Of a stretch of DNA of 59,573 bases, positions 1-6,541 are shown piece after piece (the first letter of the stretch is position 1; every line of letters begins with the position of its first letter). The translations under genes and the position numbers were made by a program. The DNA is from Candidatus Siliceabacter maunaloa (lineage in GTDB: Bacteria; Actinomycetota; Thermoleophilia; Solirubrobacterales; Solirubrobacteraceae), in assembly GCA_024330185.1 (NCBI GenBank), contig JANDLV010000023.1, positions 1-59,573 of the forward strand, read 5' to 3'. The notes under the pieces are model-generated. The model saw nothing but the letters and a program-made list of their open reading frames with translations. It did not search any database and was not told the origin of the DNA.

Positions 1-1
1 C

Positions 2-40
2 GGCGAGTGGAACTACATCATCAAGCCTCAGGGTTATTGA
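2..40 (+). CDS. C-terminal tail of a gene cut by the window edge, possibly a transposase
   Basis: The first bases read in frame as GEWNYIIKPQGY followed by TGA at 38-40. The W-N-Y-x-I-x-P pattern near a C-terminus resembles the end of ISAzo13/Rhodopirellula-type DDE transposases, from memory of that family. Twelve residues are too few to be sure. If right, a transposase gene ends just before the left side of the integrative element. Confidence 0.3.
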   Translation, partial: GEWNYIIKPQGY

Positions 41-48
41 TTGACGCT

Positions 49-59
49 TCCTTAGGAGG
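49..59. other. Possible left att core matching the tRNA anticodon loop
   Basis: The 11 bases TCCTTAGGAGG at 49-59 also occur at 6500-6510 in the anticodon arm of tRNA-Arg. The position is what a left att core would need, about 117 bp outside the left repeat. The bases left of it do not resemble the 3' half of the tRNA, as they should if this were a simple attL. The motif is also self-complementary and so more likely to recur by chance. Confidence 0.22.
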
Positions 60-175
60 CGGCGCGAGGTTCCGCCGAGCGTCACTTGAGAGCGCATCGA
101 TCTCCCGTGTTCTCGGGCTCTCGGCTCAACGGGGCGACCGACGGGCGACGCGCTCGGGCACTGCGGATGTTCGCC

Positions 176-200
176 GCTCGTTCGCCGCTCGTTCGCGTGC
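176..200 (+). repeat. Left copy of element-end direct repeat (possible integrase arm sites)
   Basis: GCTCGTTCGC occurs twice in a row at 176-185 and 187-196, followed by GTGC. The same block with a 2-nt indel and one mismatch is at 6392-6418 inside the 3' end of the integrase gene. Same-orientation repeats on both sides of a presumed att core are typical of integrase arm-type binding sites; binding is inferred. Confidence 0.45.
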
Positions 201-388
201 ACCCGGATGCGCGACGGCACCCACGACCACGCCCAGGGCAGCCTGACCCGAAGGCCGCGTTCACAATTCTGAGACGCCGTCCGGGATCGTGACCTGCGCG
301 GGGCACAGCGCCACGGACACACGTTCGCTTGGGCGCCGCTGAAGCGCGTACGCTTGTTCGTGATCACCATCCCGAGGAGGACTGACGC

Positions 389-586
389 ATGACCACCACC
401 GTTGCCGATGAGCTGAGCCCCGAGAAGCGCGCCGAGGCCGTCGAGGCGCTCCAGGCGATCGCCTCGAAGATCGACGAGCTGGACGAGCAGTTCAGCGCGT
501 TGTCGCGGGTGCTGGGGGTCGAGGTCGATGCCCAGCGCGAGACGGTCGAGGTCAAGAAGAGCGGGCTCGAGGGGCTGTTGGCATGA
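389..586 (+). CDS. Small hypothetical protein, first gene of the coupled element cluster
   Basis: This is a 65-residue acidic, mostly helical protein (MTTTVADELSPEKRAEAVEA at the start) with no recognised domain and no cysteines or membrane segment. The ATG is preceded by a strong AGGAGG site at 374-379. Its stop codon overlaps the next start (ATGA), so it is translationally coupled to the 57-residue gene downstream. The heptad-like spacing of Leu/Ile/Val between residues 15 and 45 suggests a short coiled coil or helical hairpin. Function unknown; location suggests an accessory or DNA-metabolism role in the element. Confidence 0.6.
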   Translation: MTTTVADELSPEKRAEAVEALQAIASKIDELDEQFSALSRVLGVEVDAQRETVEVKKSGLEGLLA

Positions 587-756
587 CCGTCGCCGACGAC
601 CTCGCCGCGCTGGCCGCGGCCGCCCGCGACCGCGTCGCGCTGCTGGCGCAGCTCGTCGCTGAGCGGGACGAGCAGGCGCGCCGGCGGCGGGTGGCGTTCA
701 CGAAAGCCGTCGTCGCCCGGCGCGGCCTCGGCCGGCGGCCGGGGAGGCTAAGCTGA
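583..756 (+). CDS. Very small coupled hypothetical protein (57 aa)
   Basis: Starting at the ATG that overlaps the previous stop (ATGA at 583-586), 57 codons run to TGA at 754-756, which itself overlaps the ATG of the next gene (TGATG). Overlap at both ends is strong evidence that this short frame is translated. The product is Ala/Arg-rich, with an acidic helical first half and a basic tail (RRRRVAF, then ARRGLGRRPGRLS), so it may bind nucleic acid. No family recognised. Confidence 0.6.
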   Translation: MTVADDLAALAAAARDRVALLAQLVAERDEQARRRRVAFTKAVVARRGLGRRPGRLS

Positions 757-1211
757 TGCTCGGCGACGAGCAGCAGGCTGGCGTCCGACGGGCGCTCCAG
801 CGGGTCCGCAACGCTGCGGATCACCGCGGCGTTGCGCTCGACAACCTCGAGCGCAAGAGCGAGGAGCTGTGCTCGGCGATCCGGGTCGCGCTCGAGGTTG
901 GCGTCCCCGCCGACGACCTCGAGCTGATCCGGTTCGTCATCGCCGAGGACGTGGAGCAGGTCGGGCGCCGTGAGCTCACCACCGACCAGCAGCGCGAGGT
1001 CGCCGCCGAGCAAGCGCGCCAGCAGCGAGTTCGCGCCGATCAGCAGGCCGAGCGTGAGCGAGCCGCCGCCCAGCAAGCCGCCCGCGCGCAGCGTGCCACC
1101 GCCCGCCGCGGCGAACAGCCGGCCGCCCCCGAGCGCGGCGGCGCCGATCAGCACCCGCCGCTGCTGCGCCAGCTCGCCGACCGCGCCCGCGCCCCGCACC
1201 AGGCCGCGTAG
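756..1211 (+). CDS. Hypothetical charged coiled-coil protein
   Basis: This 151-residue protein starts at an ATG overlapping the preceding stop by one base. Residues 1-70 are a mixed helical region. Residues 75-150 are almost entirely Gln, Arg, Ala and Glu, giving a long charged helix or disordered tail. No signal peptide, membrane helix or catalytic motif is visible. It is the last gene of the three-gene coupled set (389-1211). The low-complexity tail could also arise from high-GC codon bias, but the start context and coupling support a real gene. Confidence 0.5.
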   Translation: MLGDEQQAGVRRALQRVRNAADHRGVALDNLERKSEELCSAIRVALEVGVPADDLELIRFVIAEDVEQVGRRELTTDQQREVAAEQARQQRVRADQQAERERAAAQQAARAQRATARRGEQPAAPERGGADQHPPLLRQLADRARAPHQAA

Positions 1212-1349
1212 AGGGCCCTTCTGAGGCTCCCGGGGCGCCCGGGAGGGCCCACCGGCCCCCACCCAGGGCGCCGGAGCGCCGTAGGACGTACGTTTGCCCC
1301 CGCCACGGCCACGCTGACGCCCGGCGCGCGCGAGGTCAGCGCGGGACGC

Positions 1350-1907
1350 TCAAGAGCCCGTCCAGCCGGGCGGCGACACCGAGCGGCTCGTGGCCAGGTC
1401 CGGCTGTTCGGGGCCGTCACGCAGGTCGTTGGCGCCGGCCTCGACCGCCAGCGCGAATCGCCGCGCCTCGGCGCCGAGCGCAGGATCACACGGCACGACG
1501 AGGTCGGGTTGGCGTACGACGAGGTATAGCTCTCTGTGGTCGTGCGTCGTCTCCTTGGCGTTGCCCACGACGAATGGGCCGATCGGGCCGAGCACAAACC
1601 ACGAGGCGCCCTTGGCGCCAAGGTCTCTCCCGCGCGTGACGCTCATCGAGCCTGTGGCGTCGACGCTGGCCGTCGTGGCGGCCCCGAGGGCGACGTCACC
1701 CTGTTCGGGGTGCGAGATGCGCAGCGGCCCGGCGAGGAGTAGAAGCTGCCCGGCAGCCGCGAGAATGTCGCTGCCTGCGGCCCTGCGCTGAACCTCTGCC
1801 TCCGCGCGAGCCAGCTTGTAGGCCTCCCAGCGAAGGTAGCCGTAGGCGAGCGCGACCAAGATCGCGCCCGCCAAGATGTAGTCGATGACACCGAGATCGT
1901 CGCCCAC
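1350..1907 (-). CDS. Hypothetical membrane-anchored protein
   Basis: This 185-residue protein is the only minus-strand gene in the element. The start is GTG at 1905-1907 with GGAGG seven bases upstream. Residues 7-24 (VIDYILAGAILVALAYGY) form one transmembrane helix, followed by a charged stretch and a soluble domain with several beta-like segments (RELYLVVRQPDLVVPCDPAL). Predicted orientation is a short N-terminus with the bulk of the protein on one side of the membrane. No family recognised. A lone divergent membrane gene in such elements may serve exclusion or host interaction, but that is a guess. Confidence 0.55.
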   Translation of the reverse strand: MGDDLGVIDYILAGAILVALAYGYLRWEAYKLARAEAEVQRRAAGSDILAAAGQLLLLAGPLRISHPEQGDVALGAATTASVDATGSMSVTRGRDLGAKGASWFVLGPIGPFVVGNAKETTHDHRELYLVVRQPDLVVPCDPALGAEARRFALAVEAGANDLRDGPEQPDLATSRSVSPPGWTGS

Positions 1908-2395
1908 TGGTCATCCTCCGTGGTGTCGGCGGACCTGGCCGCCGAGCTTCAGAACGCGTGCGGGGAGATCCTCCGAGCGGCCCGCCGGTGGAATGGTCAT
2001 GTGCACCTAGTCGGCTTGGCCCCCGGCACGCTTGAGCACCGGCCAGGCCCTCACCCAGCAGTCCGCTAGCCCTCACGGGTGAGGGCCGTCTCACCCGCCA
2101 CCCCGCAACTACCGAGCCGGAACTACCGAACACCCCCTCACACACACGCACCAGGGCCTCGCCTGCCGCGCGGGTTGACACGGTGTCACGGTCGGTCCGG
2201 GTCCGCCGCGGTGTGGGGTAGCCTGCTGGTCAGTCCCTCCTTGGACTGTGGTTCGGCGGGCTCCATCCCGCCCCGAGCGCCCGCCCTTCGTCCGGCGGGC
2301 GCTCGTGCGCCAGGGCGCGGGATGACGTCCGGTAGGTGAGCGAAAATCCCGGCTACGCCGGTGCGATGGACGCCCGGTAGACCAAGGAGCCGGAC
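1908..2395. promoter_or_regulatory. Divergent intergenic region with two perfect palindromes
   Basis: No gene is visible in these 488 bp between the minus-strand membrane gene and the plus-strand replication genes. CCCTCAC-GG-GTGAGGG at 2070-2085 is a perfect inverted repeat, with related CTCACCC words at 2050 and 2090. TGACAC-G-GTGTCA at 2176-2188 is a second perfect palindrome that overlaps a TTGACA at 2175-2180, suggesting an operator on a -35 box. No matching -10 is clear at 17 bp. Likely holds the promoter and control sites for 2396-5317. Confidence 0.4.
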
Positions 2396-2917
2396 GTGGA
2401 CGACATCGACGAAGGCAGAGAGCCCGCAGCCACGGCGACCTGCAGCTATGGCGCGTGGCTACGGGGCCGCGCGGCGACCAGGCGCGATGACGCGCACCTG
2501 GACGAGACTGCCCGCGAGCGGGATCGGCTGCTGGCCGCGGCCGCTGAAGGCCCCACGCTGGCGGACGCCCTCGCCTGGGGCGTCGCCCGGGCTCGTGACG
2601 AGGTTCATCGCCAGCTCGACGCCCAGGAGAAGCGAGGACGGAAGGCTGGCCTCGCGGACGAGCAGATCGCGACGATGAGCATCCCCGAGGTCCGTGCGTT
2701 CGTGGCCGAGCACCGGCGCCAGTGGCGCTCCCGGTGCGTCCCGAGGCGACGCGCTCCGCGGGCTGCCCGGCGGGAGGCCCGGCCGCGTGCCCGACGCACC
2801 GGCGCGTCTTCGCGCTCGAGCTCGACCGACCCAGGCGGCGACGACCCACCATCTAGTCGGCCTCGGCTCCCGCCGCCGAGGCCGATCCCTGATCAGCGCG
2901 AGGGGGTGGCTTCGTGA
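2396..2917 (+). CDS. Hypothetical protein upstream of the replication ATPase
   Basis: This 173-residue protein starts at GTG 2396 with AAGGAG nine bases upstream. Residues 1-105 are acidic-to-neutral and helical (LADALAWGVARARDEVHRQL). The rest is Arg/Pro/Ser-rich and probably disordered, possibly DNA-binding. Its stop overlaps the next start (GTGA at 2914-2917), so it is coupled to the AAA ATPase. No known family. By position it could be a replication accessory or loader, but nothing in the sequence proves this. Confidence 0.5.
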   Translation: MDDIDEGREPAATATCSYGAWLRGRAATRRDDAHLDETARERDRLLAAAAEGPTLADALAWGVARARDEVHRQLDAQEKRGRKAGLADEQIATMSIPEVRAFVAEHRRQWRSRCVPRRRAPRAARREARPRARRTGASSRSSSTDPGGDDPPSSRPRLPPPRPIPDQREGVAS

Positions 2918-4446
2918 GCGGCCCGACGTGGACCGGGCGCTGCACCGGCTGCCACCGCGACGGCGTCGAGGTCTCACCGTCTCGCGACCACTTCGAGCGT
3001 GTCCTCTGCGAGCGGTGCGCCGCGAAGCCCGCGCCGCCGCCGGTTCCCCGGGACGTGAGCCGCGAGGACCAGCGCGACGGCACTGTGCTCGTGCGCGACG
3101 AGCACGGCGAGACGCGCCTCGAGCACCCCGACGACGCGGCTGCGCCACCGGCGGCGAACGGAACGGCGCCGGCCCCACCCGCCGCGGCGCGGCGGGTCGA
3201 GCTCACCCCCGCGACGGCGATCCGATCGGAGCGGCTGCACTGGGTCTGGACGGGCAGGATGCCCCGCCGGTCCCTGGTCGTCGTCGCGGGAGAGAAGGGC
3301 CTCGGCAAGTCGCTGCTGACCAACGCGCGGCTTCCCGCGCTCGTCACCCGCGGCGACCTCGATGGTGAACTGCGCGGCGAGCCGGCCGATGTGGTGATCG
3401 CCACCGCCGAGGACGACTGGGCAAGCGTCGTGAAGCCCCGCCTCGCGGCGCACGGCGCGGATCTCGCCCGGGTGCACCGAGTAGCTGCGCACGACGAGGC
3501 CGGCACCACGCTGTTGACGCTGCCCGACGACGTGCCGCGCCTCGAGAAGGAGATCGTCGCGCTACGAGCCGAGGGACACGCCGTCGCGATGCTCGTGGTC
3601 GACCCCATCGGCGCGTTCCTCGCCCAGAGCACGGACACCCACCGCGACGCGTCCGTTCGGCGTGCGCTGGCGCCGTTGGCCGCGATGGCAGAGCGCCTCG
3701 ACCTCGTCGTGGTCGTGGTCGCGCACCTGACCAAGGACGAGTCCGGGCGCCTCATCAACCGCGTCTCGGGAGCCGGGGCGTTCGTGAACGCTGCCAGGTC
3801 GGTCCTGGCGATGGCCCGCGACCCCGGCGACCCCGACGGCGAGCAGGGCACCGAGCGGGTGCTCCTCCACGTCGGCTCGAACTGGGGCAGCTACGCGGCC
3901 ACGCTGGCGTGGCGCGTGGAGGGCCGCACCGTCGAGGTCGACGATGGCTCGACCACCGATGTCGGCTACCTCGTCGACAACGGCGAGTCGACGGTCGGCG
4001 TCGACGACGTGCAGCGCGGCCCCGACGACAACGGCGGCGACGCCGAGGAAGCGATCGGCGCCGCGCTCGTGGCTGGCCCGCGGCCGTCGCGCGAGGTCAA
4101 GGGCGAGGTCGCCACGGCGCTGGGATGCGCGAAGAAGACCGTGGAGCGCGCCGCGGTCCGGATGGCCCAGCGCGGCGACCTGACGATCGAGCAGGGCGGC
4201 TTCCCACGGACCACCACGTGGGCGCTCGCCAGTGGGGACACCCCCGCCGCCCCCAGTGGGGACACCCCCGGACCTCCGACTGTCCCTACTGCCAGTAGGG
4301 ACGTCCCTACTGGGATTTCGGCGTCCAGTGGGGACAGTGGGGACACCCCCGCGCGAGATGTCGCCACTGGCGACGATCCCGACATCGCCCGCGCCGAGCG
4401 CTTGGCCGCCGACCATCGCGACCTCGCCGGCCAGGCGACGTCGTGA
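2914..4446 (+). CDS. RepA/DnaB-like AAA family ATPase of the integrative element
   Basis: This 510-residue protein has three parts. An N-terminal zinc-ribbon-like segment carries CTGC near residue 10 and CERC near residue 32. The ATPase core starts near residue 115 with Walker A GEKGLGKS, followed by an AEDDW motif and a Walker-B-like hydrophobic strand ending VVDPIG, as in RepA/AAA_25 helicases of plasmids and satellites. Residues 375-435 look like a winged-helix region (EVATALGCAKKTVERAAVRM). The last 75 residues are low-complexity (SGDTP repeats) because the DNA there is an array of iterons. Likely role: replicative helicase or initiator of the excised element. No separate primase is visible. 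Confidence 0.75.
   Translation: MSGPTWTGRCTGCHRDGVEVSPSRDHFERVLCERCAAKPAPPPVPRDVSREDQRDGTVLVRDEHGETRLEHPDDAAAPPAANGTAPAPPAAARRVELTPATAIRSERLHWVWTGRMPRRSLVVVAGEKGLGKSLLTNARLPALVTRGDLDGELRGEPADVVIATAEDDWASVVKPRLAAHGADLARVHRVAAHDEAGTTLLTLPDDVPRLEKEIVALRAEGHAVAMLVVDPIGAFLAQSTDTHRDASVRRALAPLAAMAERLDLVVVVVAHLTKDESGRLINRVSGAGAFVNAARSVLAMARDPGDPDGEQGTERVLLHVGSNWGSYAATLAWRVEGRTVEVDDGSTTDVGYLVDNGESTVGVDDVQRGPDDNGGDAEEAIGAALVAGPRPSREVKGEVATALGCAKKTVERAAVRMAQRGDLTIEQGGFPRTTTWALASGDTPAAPSGDTPGPPTVPTASRDVPTGISASSGDSGDTPARDVATGDDPDIARAERLAADHRDLAGQATS
4229..4373. repeat. Iteron-like repeat cluster inside the ATPase gene, candidate replication origin
   Basis: The 18-mer CCAGTGGGGACACCCCCG occurs at 4229-4246 and 4253-4270 (24-bp period) and, less its first base, at 4335-4351. 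CCAGTGGGGAC is at 4325-4335. The variant CCAGTAGGGAC is at 4292-4302 and inverted at 4303-4313, giving a perfect 22-bp palindrome, with a further inverted copy (GTCCCTACTG) at 4282-4291. A related palindrome CGCCACTGGCGA is at 4362-4373. Direct and inverted copies of one 11-bp word beside a helicase gene are typical of iteron origins; origin function is inferred. Confidence 0.6.
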
Positions 4447-4673
4447 CCGCCCTGCGCATCGCTCACCGCCGCGCCACCGAGCCCGTGAGCGCGCCGTGCG
4501 GCCGCTGCCTGCTCACGGTCGAGGCGCCCGCCGGCGCCTGGATCGCCGTGGAGGCCGACGGCACCGCGCCCGTCTGCGACCCGTGCGCCCGCCGCGATGA
4601 CCCGCAGGGCCACGGCCAGCTCACCGGGTGGCGCCGCGCCGCCGCCGGCGCTGCCAGGAGGGCCGCGGCATGA
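4443..4673 (+). CDS. Small zinc-ribbon-like protein
   Basis: This 76-residue protein starts at GTG 4443, overlapping the ATPase stop by four bases. It carries CGRC near residue 19 and CDPC near residue 45, a two-knuckle spacing that suggests one zinc site, followed by a basic Ala/Arg tail. Similar CxxC...CxxC mini-proteins are common beside replication genes in actinobacterial elements. A role in DNA or protein binding is inferred. Its stop overlaps the next ATG (ATGA at 4670-4673). Confidence 0.55.
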   Translation: MTALRIAHRRATEPVSAPCGRCLLTVEAPAGAWIAVEADGTAPVCDPCARRDDPQGHGQLTGWRRAAAGAARRAAA

Positions 4674-5038
4674 GCGCGACCCTGCCGCCGCTCGTTCGGG
4701 CGCTGCTCGACGCCCTGGCCGAGCACCCCGACGCCCGCGCCGAGCTGCGCCGCGTGCTCGCCTTCGAGGACGCCCCACGGGCGCCGGAGGCGCGGAGCGC
4801 TTACACCGCGGCGACGCTGGCCGCCGAGCTCGGGGTCACGACCCGCGCCGTCCGCGCGGCCATCGCCCGCGGCGACCTCACCGCCACGAAGCGCGCCGGG
4901 CGGTGGATCATCGCCCGCCACGCCGTCGAGGCCTGGGCCTCGCCGGACGCCGCTCCCCGTGCCCGCCGCCGCGGGCCCGTCAGGCGGTCGGGCCGCCCGA
5001 TGGCCGATGCCCTGGATGCGCTCGACGATGCCGCGTAG
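4670..5038 (+). CDS. Excisionase-like helix-turn-helix DNA-binding protein
   Basis: This 122-residue protein starts at ATG 4670, chosen because AGGAGGG lies just upstream and the codon overlaps the previous stop; an in-frame GTG at 4628 is less likely. Residues 46-90 (TAATLAAELGVTTRAVRAAI then KRAGRWIIARHAVEAW) fit the MerR/excisionase-type winged HTH (HTH_17): helix, turn, recognition helix, then a wing with Gly-Arg-Trp. The basic tail (ARRRGPVRRSGR) may add DNA contacts. Two genes upstream of the integrase, it is the best candidate for the recombination directionality factor. Confidence 0.65.
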   Translation: MSATLPPLVRALLDALAEHPDARAELRRVLAFEDAPRAPEARSAYTAATLAAELGVTTRAVRAAIARGDLTATKRAGRWIIARHAVEAWASPDAAPRARRRGPVRRSGRPMADALDALDDAA

Positions 5039-5110
5039 AGTGGGCCCAGCACATCAAGCGCCCCCGCGCGGTTGCAGCCGCCGGGGGCATGGCCCAGGAG
5101 GACTAGCTCC

Positions 5111-5317
5111 ATGAGCACCACTGACCGTACCGAGGGCACCGCGGATCGCGCTGCCCTGCGTCGTGTCCGCGTTGACGCCGAGCGCGTCGAGCGCCTGACC
5201 GACCAGCTCGAGCAGGCGCGCCGTGACCTCGCCGAGAGCGAGCTGCTGGCCGTGGAGGTCGGCGCGCTTGCGCCGCAGACCCACCACGGCGTCGCCAAGC
5301 CCGGAGCGCGAGCATGA
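5111..5317 (+). CDS. Small coiled-coil protein coupled to the integrase
   Basis: This 68-residue protein starts at ATG 5111 after CAGGAGGA, chosen over an upstream in-frame start at 5072 that lacks a ribosome site. Residues 12-48 have heptad-spaced Leu/Val (VERLTDQLEQARRDLAESEL), consistent with a dimeric coiled coil. Its stop overlaps the integrase ATG (ATGA at 5314-5317), so the integrase is translated from the same message. Function unknown. Confidence 0.55.
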   Translation: MSTTDRTEGTADRAALRRVRVDAERVERLTDQLEQARRDLAESELLAVEVGALAPQTHHGVAKPGARA

Positions 5318-6441
5318 GCGTCCACCGCAGCACCCGCACCACGAACGGCACGCAGCGCACCTCCTACGTCGTGCGCTACCGGCAGGGCACCCGCAACCGC
5401 CAGCGGACCTTCGACCGCGCGAGCGACGCCCGCGCGTTTGATGACGAGGTGCGCCGTCGCCGTCAGGCGGGGCCCAGCGCCGTCCGGGCGCTCGACGCCG
5501 GGCGCGAGACGCTCGACGAGTACGTGGTCCAGACGTGGACGCCCGCGCACGCCGCGCACCTCGCCCCGAAGACCCGGCGCACCTACGCGCAGATGTACGA
5601 CTGCCACATCGCCCCGGCACTCGGCGGGACCCGCCTGTGCGACATCGACCCCGAGGCGATCGCCGCGTGGCGCGGGAGCCTCATCGGCCGCATCGGGCCC
5701 GAGGCGCTGCACAAGGCCATGACGCTGCTCGGCGCGATCCTCCAGCGCGCCGCCGAGGCCCAGCGGATCCCGTACAACCCCGCGCGGCTGGTGAGCAAGC
5801 CGCGGCGCACGAAGGCCCCGGAGGTGCGCCCGCTGGCGCCCGCCCAGGTCGAGGCGATCCGCGCGAGCGTCGACCCGCGCTCGGCGGCGGTGGTGTCCGT
5901 GCTGGCCTACGCCGGGCTGCGCCCCCACGAGCTGCGCCGCCTGCGCTGGCGCGACGTGCGCGACGCGACGCTGCTCGTCTACGCGACGAAGACCCAGACG
6001 CGGCGCACCGTGCGCCTCCTCGCGCCGCTGGCCGCCGATCTGGCCGCGTGGCGGCTCGCGAGCGGGCGCCCCGCCGCCGACGCGCTGGTGTTCGCCGACG
6101 AGGACGGCGGCGAGTGGTCGAGCAACGGCTTCAACAAGTGGCGGGCCCGCGTGTTCGGGCCCGCGCTGCGCGCCGCCGGGCTAGAGCGCGGGCGCCCGTA
6201 CGACCTGCGCCACTCGTTCGCGTCGCTGCTGCTGCACGAGGGCCGCTCGCCGATCTACGTCGCCCGTCAGCTCGGCCACGGCGCCGCGCTCACGATGGGC
6301 ACCTACGGCCACGTCATCGACGAGCTGGAGGACGCCCCGAACCTGCCCGCCGAGGACGCAATCCGGGCGGCGCGAGAGGGACGAAACGGCGGCTCGTGTT
6401 CGCCTCTCGTTCGCGTGCCGCAGGCGGCGGCGGGCGCGTGA
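5314..6441 (+). CDS. Tyrosine-family site-specific integrase
   Basis: This 375-residue protein has an N-terminal arm-binding-like region (residues 1-60), a SAM-like core-binding domain (about 65-165) and a catalytic domain (about 170-350). Catalytic residues are visible: Arg in GLRPHELRRLRW, the His-x-x-Arg-type box in DLRHSFASLLLHEGR, His in LGH, and the nucleophile Tyr in TYGHV. It would cut and rejoin DNA at the att core to integrate or excise the element. The gene points into the tRNA-Arg 3' end 26 bp away. The last codons hold a copy of the element-end repeat (6392-6418). Confidence 0.92.
   Translation: MSVHRSTRTTNGTQRTSYVVRYRQGTRNRQRTFDRASDARAFDDEVRRRRQAGPSAVRALDAGRETLDEYVVQTWTPAHAAHLAPKTRRTYAQMYDCHIAPALGGTRLCDIDPEAIAAWRGSLIGRIGPEALHKAMTLLGAILQRAAEAQRIPYNPARLVSKPRRTKAPEVRPLAPAQVEAIRASVDPRSAAVVSVLAYAGLRPHELRRLRWRDVRDATLLVYATKTQTRRTVRLLAPLAADLAAWRLASGRPAADALVFADEDGGEWSSNGFNKWRARVFGPALRAAGLERGRPYDLRHSFASLLLHEGRSPIYVARQLGHGAALTMGTYGHVIDELEDAPNLPAEDAIRAAREGRNGGSCSPLVRVPQAAAGA
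6392..6418 (+). repeat. Right copy of element-end direct repeat
   Basis: This 27-bp block in the final codons of the integrase matches 176-200 except for a 2-nt indel and one base. It lies about 80 bp from the tRNA anticodon region. Together with the left copy it could form arm-type sites on the two sides of the circular element's att site. Confidence 0.45.
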
Positions 6442-6467
6442 GGCCCGGATCGCCGGTGAACACGGGA

Positions 6468-6541
<74 letters not shown>

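Follow-up and report, generated by a model that had tools for sequence, protein, structure and literature searches.

The window analyzed here is the whole of a 59,573-nucleotide stretch of contig JANDLV010000023.1 from Candidatus Siliceabacter maunaloa. We found that it opens with an integrative element of about 6.46 kb (positions 52 to 6510) inserted in a tRNA-Arg(CCU) gene. The integration target is the tRNA-Arg gene (anticodon CCT) located by ARAGORN on the minus strand at 6468 to 6541, and attR (6466 to 6510) comprises the 3' half of this gene, GACGCCCCGACCTGGATTCGAACCAGGGGCCTACTCCTTAGGAGG, which is repeated on contig C90. There, 43 bp of attR recur at positions 48 to 90, at the contig start beside one IS end, and no whole tRNA was present at that place. 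An IS has inserted in attL with duplication of TTA, splitting attL and making the IS end the start of the contig; the contig is broken at the start of the window because the interior of the IS was not assembled. Joining the IS flanks gave a 45-bp exact repeat of 6466 to 6510, and it is for this reason that the element is placed at about 52 to 6510. From these sequences we infer that C90 joins the window across the unassembled IS. An 11-bp match of positions 49 to 59 to the tRNA anticodon loop is the inner half of attL; the doubt that it might be chance, raised because the IS ends at 51, was removed by the other IS flank on C90. The IS ends occupy window positions 1 to 51 and C90:1-50, and the genome holds about four copies of the IS, with right ends on C37, C50, C58, and C75 and left ends on C90, C88, C97, and C62.

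Within the element, three cargo ORFs on the minus strand (389 to 586, 756 to 1211, and 1350 to 1907) gave no matches in NCBIfam and PADLOC scans. On the plus strand, an ORF at 2396 to 2917, which had no Pfam, NCBIfam, or PADLOC match and only a weak match to a PHROG group of unknown function, overlaps by 4 bp the start of the gene under study, an ATPase ORF at 2914 to 4446. The latter is followed on the same strand by a small Cys-containing ORF of 76 amino acids (4443 to 4673), a 48%-identical relative of which lies near the ATPase in homologous locus L008; by a gene for an HTH_17 excisionase-like protein (4670 to 5038; Pfam HTH_17, E=7.9e-7; PHROG excisionase); and by a tyrosine integrase gene (5314 to 6441; Phage_integrase, E=4.6e-15; PHROG integrase, E=2.8e-55). 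The locus therefore carries the integrase, excisionase-like gene, and tRNA att repeats of an actinobacterial integrative element. Among the element's scanned ORFs, a subset, there was no match to an FtsK-like Tra conjugation gene, the mark of AICEs, or to ParA or ParB. A 21-bp direct repeat, GTTCGCCKCTCGTTCGCGTGC (20/21 identical), was noted at 180 to 200 and 6398 to 6418, some 100 bp inward of either end of the element; these copies are possible arm-type integrase sites. A dyad, CAGTCC-CTCCTT-GGACTG, lies upstream of the operon at 2231 to 2247 and is a possible operator.

Pfam analysis of the ATPase ORF revealed an AAA_25 domain (E=1.5e-21), and in PHROG it matched phage primase/helicase groups. 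Its sequence profile matched RadA and the hexameric RepA of RSF1010 (1g8y, 2.7e-6), and fold comparison placed the core equally close to RSF1010 RepA and DnaB (tied, Z about 21; Z 21.2 with an rmsd of 3.2 over 219 residues). The protein thus has the RecA-fold ATPase domain of AAA_25 and RSF1010 RepA-type helicases. An AlphaFold2 model (mean pLDDT 73, 11 sequences) presented, in order, a RecA-type core, a winged helix at residues 374 to 438 (4033 to 4227), a disordered stretch at 442 to 490, and a C-terminal helix at 489 to 505 (4378 to 4428). The winged helix was modeled as three helices (374 to 384, 392 to 403, and 407 to 419) and two strands (423 to 427 and 434 to 438), and it is the proposed iteron-binding domain. 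The best reading of these predictions is a RepA/DnaB-type, RecA-fold hexameric helicase core with a C-terminal winged helix, the whole being the proposed initiator of the element.

The repeat array that concerns us here (4229 to 4373) lies within the coding sequence of this gene, at residues of about 439 to 487. It begins where the winged helix ends and halts before the short C-terminal helix; residues 442 to 490, with pLDDT below 50, form a predicted disordered linker encoded by the repeats. The array is likely translated, because GC3 after it is 0.92, equal to that of the core, because the last 4 bp of the ORF (GTGA) are shared with the next ORF, and because many homologues have Cys-rich or helical segments beyond their arrays and a similar gene overlap. 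Cys-rich, zinc-ribbon-like segments were seen after the in-gene array in L006, L007, L008, L016, L038, L058, L071, and L076.

An exact motif search found seven copies of CAGTRGGGAC in the 59.6-kb window, five direct and two inverted, all inside 4230 to 4344; the shuffle expectation is 0.18 per whole window, and none of 100 shuffles gave seven. The plus-strand copies start at 4230, 4254, 4293, 4326, and 4335, and those on the minus strand run from 4291 to 4282 and from 4312 to 4303. Iterons 1 (4230 to 4239) and 2 (4254 to 4263) both read CAGTGGGGAC and are followed by the inverted iteron 3, CAGTAGGGAC (4282 to 4291, minus strand). Iterons 4 and 5 together make up a perfect 22-bp palindrome, CCAGTAGGGACGTCCCTACTGG (4292 to 4313). 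Iterons 6 (4326 to 4335) and 7 (4335 to 4344) are again CAGTGGGGAC on the plus strand, 9 bp apart, and a degenerate eighth copy, CCAGTGGCGAC, occupies 4370 to 4360 on the minus strand. Across the 3.79-Mb genome, pairs of the motif at close spacing occur in this array only, and in the window there is no copy near the presumed upstream promoter or anywhere else outside the array. An earlier note on this DNA had reported about seven direct and inverted copies and a perfect palindrome at 4292 to 4313, and the search confirmed both. It had also placed an HTH-like region just upstream, which corresponds to the directly adjoining predicted winged helix, and had assigned the array to the last 75 codons; the position near the 3' end holds, but the array is an insert, with the last 25 or so codons lying beyond it.

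Iteron replicons carry several copies of a short, element-specific repeat beside or within the rep gene, and such copies are present here. The richest 20-mer by the array is 45% AT and overlaps the repeats themselves, and no pronounced AT-rich unwinding region of the kind expected of such replicons was found beside the array. On that ground we do not file the array as a classical iteron plasmid origin. The five direct copies share a single codon phase, and on the window alone a peptide repeat could for this reason account for them too; the homologues do exclude it, as set out below.

Homologues were collected by profile searches over the same order, class, and phylum and by one genome-contig scan. 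Their hosts are Actinomycetota, Chloroflexi, a deltaproteobacterial MAG, Paraburkholderia, and a Planctomycetaceae MAG; one relative from the same-order search belongs to a Thermoleophilaceae MAG. Viral contigs scanned with two single-protein queries yielded no relatives, and an alignment of the mixed set showed no segment of sufficient conservation to serve as a query. In at least 14 of 17 other homologue-bearing genomes checked, a tyrosine integrase gene shares the contig with the helicase gene and lies no more than about 17 kb from it, the positions having been compared by eye. In some family members the protein is fused to a Prim-Pol or TOPRIM primase domain. The Streptomyces plasmid NZ_CP058979 (22.4 kb) has a family member as its sole annotated replication-type gene, with repeats directly past the stop codon of that gene. 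Plasmid pCG2 was considered as proof of a plasmid driven by the ATPase alone and was dropped, since it also has a weak Rep_1 match.

Repeat content was assessed at 53 nonredundant loci by counting 8-mer repeat pairs in the 300 nt that follow the winged helix and comparing them with dinucleotide shuffles. Repeats were significant (p<=0.01) at 77% of these loci, with a median z of 5.95, whereas control windows (upstream, in the ATPase core, and farther downstream) were significant in 2 to 12%. After the winged helix there were 838 direct pairs versus 82 expected and 685 inverted pairs versus 94 expected. About a quarter of the homologues, phage Rando14 among them, have no significant array. Among 43 significant arrays, 33 lie mostly in the ORF and 9 mostly past the stop codon, the latter group including pCG2, NZ_CP058979, and phage Marcie. 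The position of the array is conserved among homologues, and the sequence of the repeats differs.

Several further features of these loci were noted. The Paraburkholderia homologue (L077), which has a 187-amino-acid tail, carries a very strong further array (z=26) at 300 to 600 nt past the winged helix. In L014 (G058:C303) the frame stops early, at 187 amino acids, with no winged-helix end and with repeat-like DNA after the stop; it is possibly a decayed copy. The sequence AAA[CT]CCC occurs at 0.91 per kb after the winged helix versus 0.09 per kb in the ATPase core, about a tenfold difference. It was seen within 285 nt past the winged helix in L001, L008, L031, L033, L042, and others, in some loci between two iteron groups; a second origin element is one possible explanation, and an effect of base composition is another.

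The earlier note had proposed comparing homologues for repeats conserved in the DNA and not in the protein, and the 53 homologues bear this out in place, orientation, reading frame, and recoding. All 33 in-ORF arrays contain copies in both orientations, and in 26 of them same-strand copies fall in at least two reading frames. The peptide over the array is not conserved among homologues. In L031, the closest relative, copies of CGTGTCCCCAA retain the GGGGACA half of the window's site and are read as the differing peptides RVPN, ACPQ, and IGDT. At 40 loci, codons were resampled from each gene's own usage with the peptide held fixed. Under this synonymous recoding, 70 inverted pairs are expected where 496 are observed, and 130 direct pairs where 706 are observed, with p<=0.01 at 27 of the 40 loci. 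These computations show that the repeats are maintained at the DNA level beyond the needs of the peptide; given the inverted copies, the multiple frames, and the recoding, we rejected a protein repeat as their explanation.

In order to relate the repeats to the domains of the protein, motif distances at 40 loci were compared with winged-helix and ATPase distances by partial Mantel tests. The correlation of motif with winged helix given the ATPase was 0.27 (p=0.0003), an effect of moderate size, and that of motif with ATPase given the winged helix was 0.09 (p=0.06); the motif finder behind these values was simple and miscalled at least one locus (L031). The sites of L042, CAGTAGCGACA, and L033, CAGTCACGACA, are similar to that of the window, and their winged helices also are similar. 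Because the sequence of the repeats follows the winged helix, and barely the ATPase domain, this covariation supports binding of the repeats by the winged helix of the same protein. A simple rule in which one residue sets recognition (Lys after RA with an AAG half-site), for which the residue was taken from a crude pattern, was not significant (Fisher p=0.11) and was rejected.

The repeats and their place, their recurrence across the family, their upkeep at the DNA level, the covariation with the winged helix, the helicase fold, and the ends of the element were all computed here. On these grounds we propose, with a probability of roughly 0.78, that this small element, integrated in a tRNA gene, has its replication origin within the gene for its own initiator and that the array is the part of this origin to which the initiator binds. 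In the proposed mechanism, the winged helix would bind the iterons and, so bound, would load the helicase at the array; this loading would start replication of the excised circle. Once translated, the array would supply a flexible connection from the winged helix to the short C-terminal segment. About 350 bp (4033 to 4373) hold both the specificity domain and its target, which would therefore be coinherited and able to diversify jointly. The suggestion in the earlier note that the replication ATPase carries its origin in its own gene is thus supported by the DNA-level repeats, the winged-helix covariation, and the delimited element.

Other roles for the array have to be weighed. Plasmid iteron arrays also act in copy control, as is generally known, and the winged-helix sites could serve copy control, autoregulation, or partition (through handcuffing, as an operator, or as a centromere), with the start site elsewhere. 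The lack of a clear AT-rich element by the array would fit such a role. We nevertheless consider it unlikely, as the motif is absent from the presumed upstream promoter and the rest of the window, the scanned ORFs are without a ParA/ParB match, and the arrays of relatives stay by the end of the helicase gene, like the SaPI and SCCmec origins (PMC7581432). Another protein might instead bind the array to control excision or integration, and the HTH_17 excisionase-like protein is one candidate, its gene being the next but one. Very little credence can be given to this, however, since the repeat sequence covaries with the winged helix of the ATPase, since on plasmids, and in loci with no similar HTH_17 gene in the stretch examined, the ATPase is still followed by an array, and since about 2.1 kb separate the array from the att site.

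The single codon phase of the window's direct copies and the predicted disorder of the linker are what might be expected if the repeats had arisen as a side effect of in-frame duplications that lengthened a low-complexity protein linker. That notion is scarcely credible given the inverted copies and palindromes, the use of several frames in homologues, the loss of the repeats on synonymous recoding, and the nine arrays with repeats past the stop codon.

Neither in-gene iterons (lambda O) nor initiator helicases with gene-end iterons (SaPI Rep and Cch2) are new. A literature search, mostly without subscription papers, found no description of AAA_25 proteins with an in-gene iteron array. The combination absent from the papers searched is that of a RepA-type helicase whose translation runs on through its iteron array, an arrangement that recurs in a broad family. 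We would put at even odds the wider idea that such genes form a widespread class of replicon cassettes not yet described, in which the reading frame of a RepA-type helicase-initiator runs through its origin and the adjoining specificity domain and iterons cotransfer and codiversify. If this is true, each element has an origin code of its own, which could be worked out from dozens of natural pairs, and the unusual repeat-rich C termini found in many AAA-family ATPases, actinobacterial and other, are origins read as protein. For integrative elements and plasmids that are little studied, the origin could then be found by sequence alone, and the natural library of initiator-iteron pairs would allow direct tests of origin specificity, of incompatibility, and of their evolution.

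Among known systems, phage lambda offers the likeness of origin iterons in the initiator's own gene: the iterons bound by the O initiator sit within the O coding sequence at ori-lambda (PMC5043065), just as the iterons here sit in the translated ORF of the proposed initiator. Unlike the ATPase studied here, the lambda initiator has no helicase domain and acts as dimers on 19-bp inverted repeats in mid-gene; the present sites are about 11 bp long, occur in both orientations, and lie near the 3' end of a helicase-type gene. SaPI Rep and SCCmec Cch2 recognize, through a C-terminal domain, iterons situated where the encoding gene ends (PMC7581432). The window shares with these systems a helicase, a C-terminal double-stranded-DNA-binding domain (here the predicted winged helix) followed by gene-end iterons, and an integrated element, but their iterons are downstream of the gene, whereas those of the present family are mostly inside the ORF. 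The helicase of SaPI Rep and Cch2 is MCM-like AAA+, in contrast to the RecA-fold, AAA_25/RepA-like domain predicted here. SaPI Rep and Cch were not among the fold matches listed, the best of which were RepA, DnaB, and RadA, a result that does not exclude kinship.

The Streptomyces theta plasmids pWTY27 and pFP11 are likewise actinobacterial Rep/iteron replicons, and the RepA protein of pWTY27 binds GTGGGAAC repeats, direct and inverted (PMC3583192). The pWTY27 iterons lie in a noncoding 300-bp segment, whereas the array described here is coding. The linear plasmid pSLA2, another replicon of this type, has iterons within rep1. RSF1010 RepA and the ATPase have a common helicase fold and sequence family neighborhood; to our knowledge, RSF1010 RepA has no origin-binding domain, and in RSF1010 a separate protein, RepC, binds the iterons. 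The alpha protein of satellite phage P4 combines primase, helicase, and a C-terminal winged-helix origin-binding domain that binds iterons in one polypeptide. It thus resembles the protein proposed here in being a helicase with a C-terminal winged helix for iterons, but its helicase is of the SF3 type and its iterons lie outside the gene.
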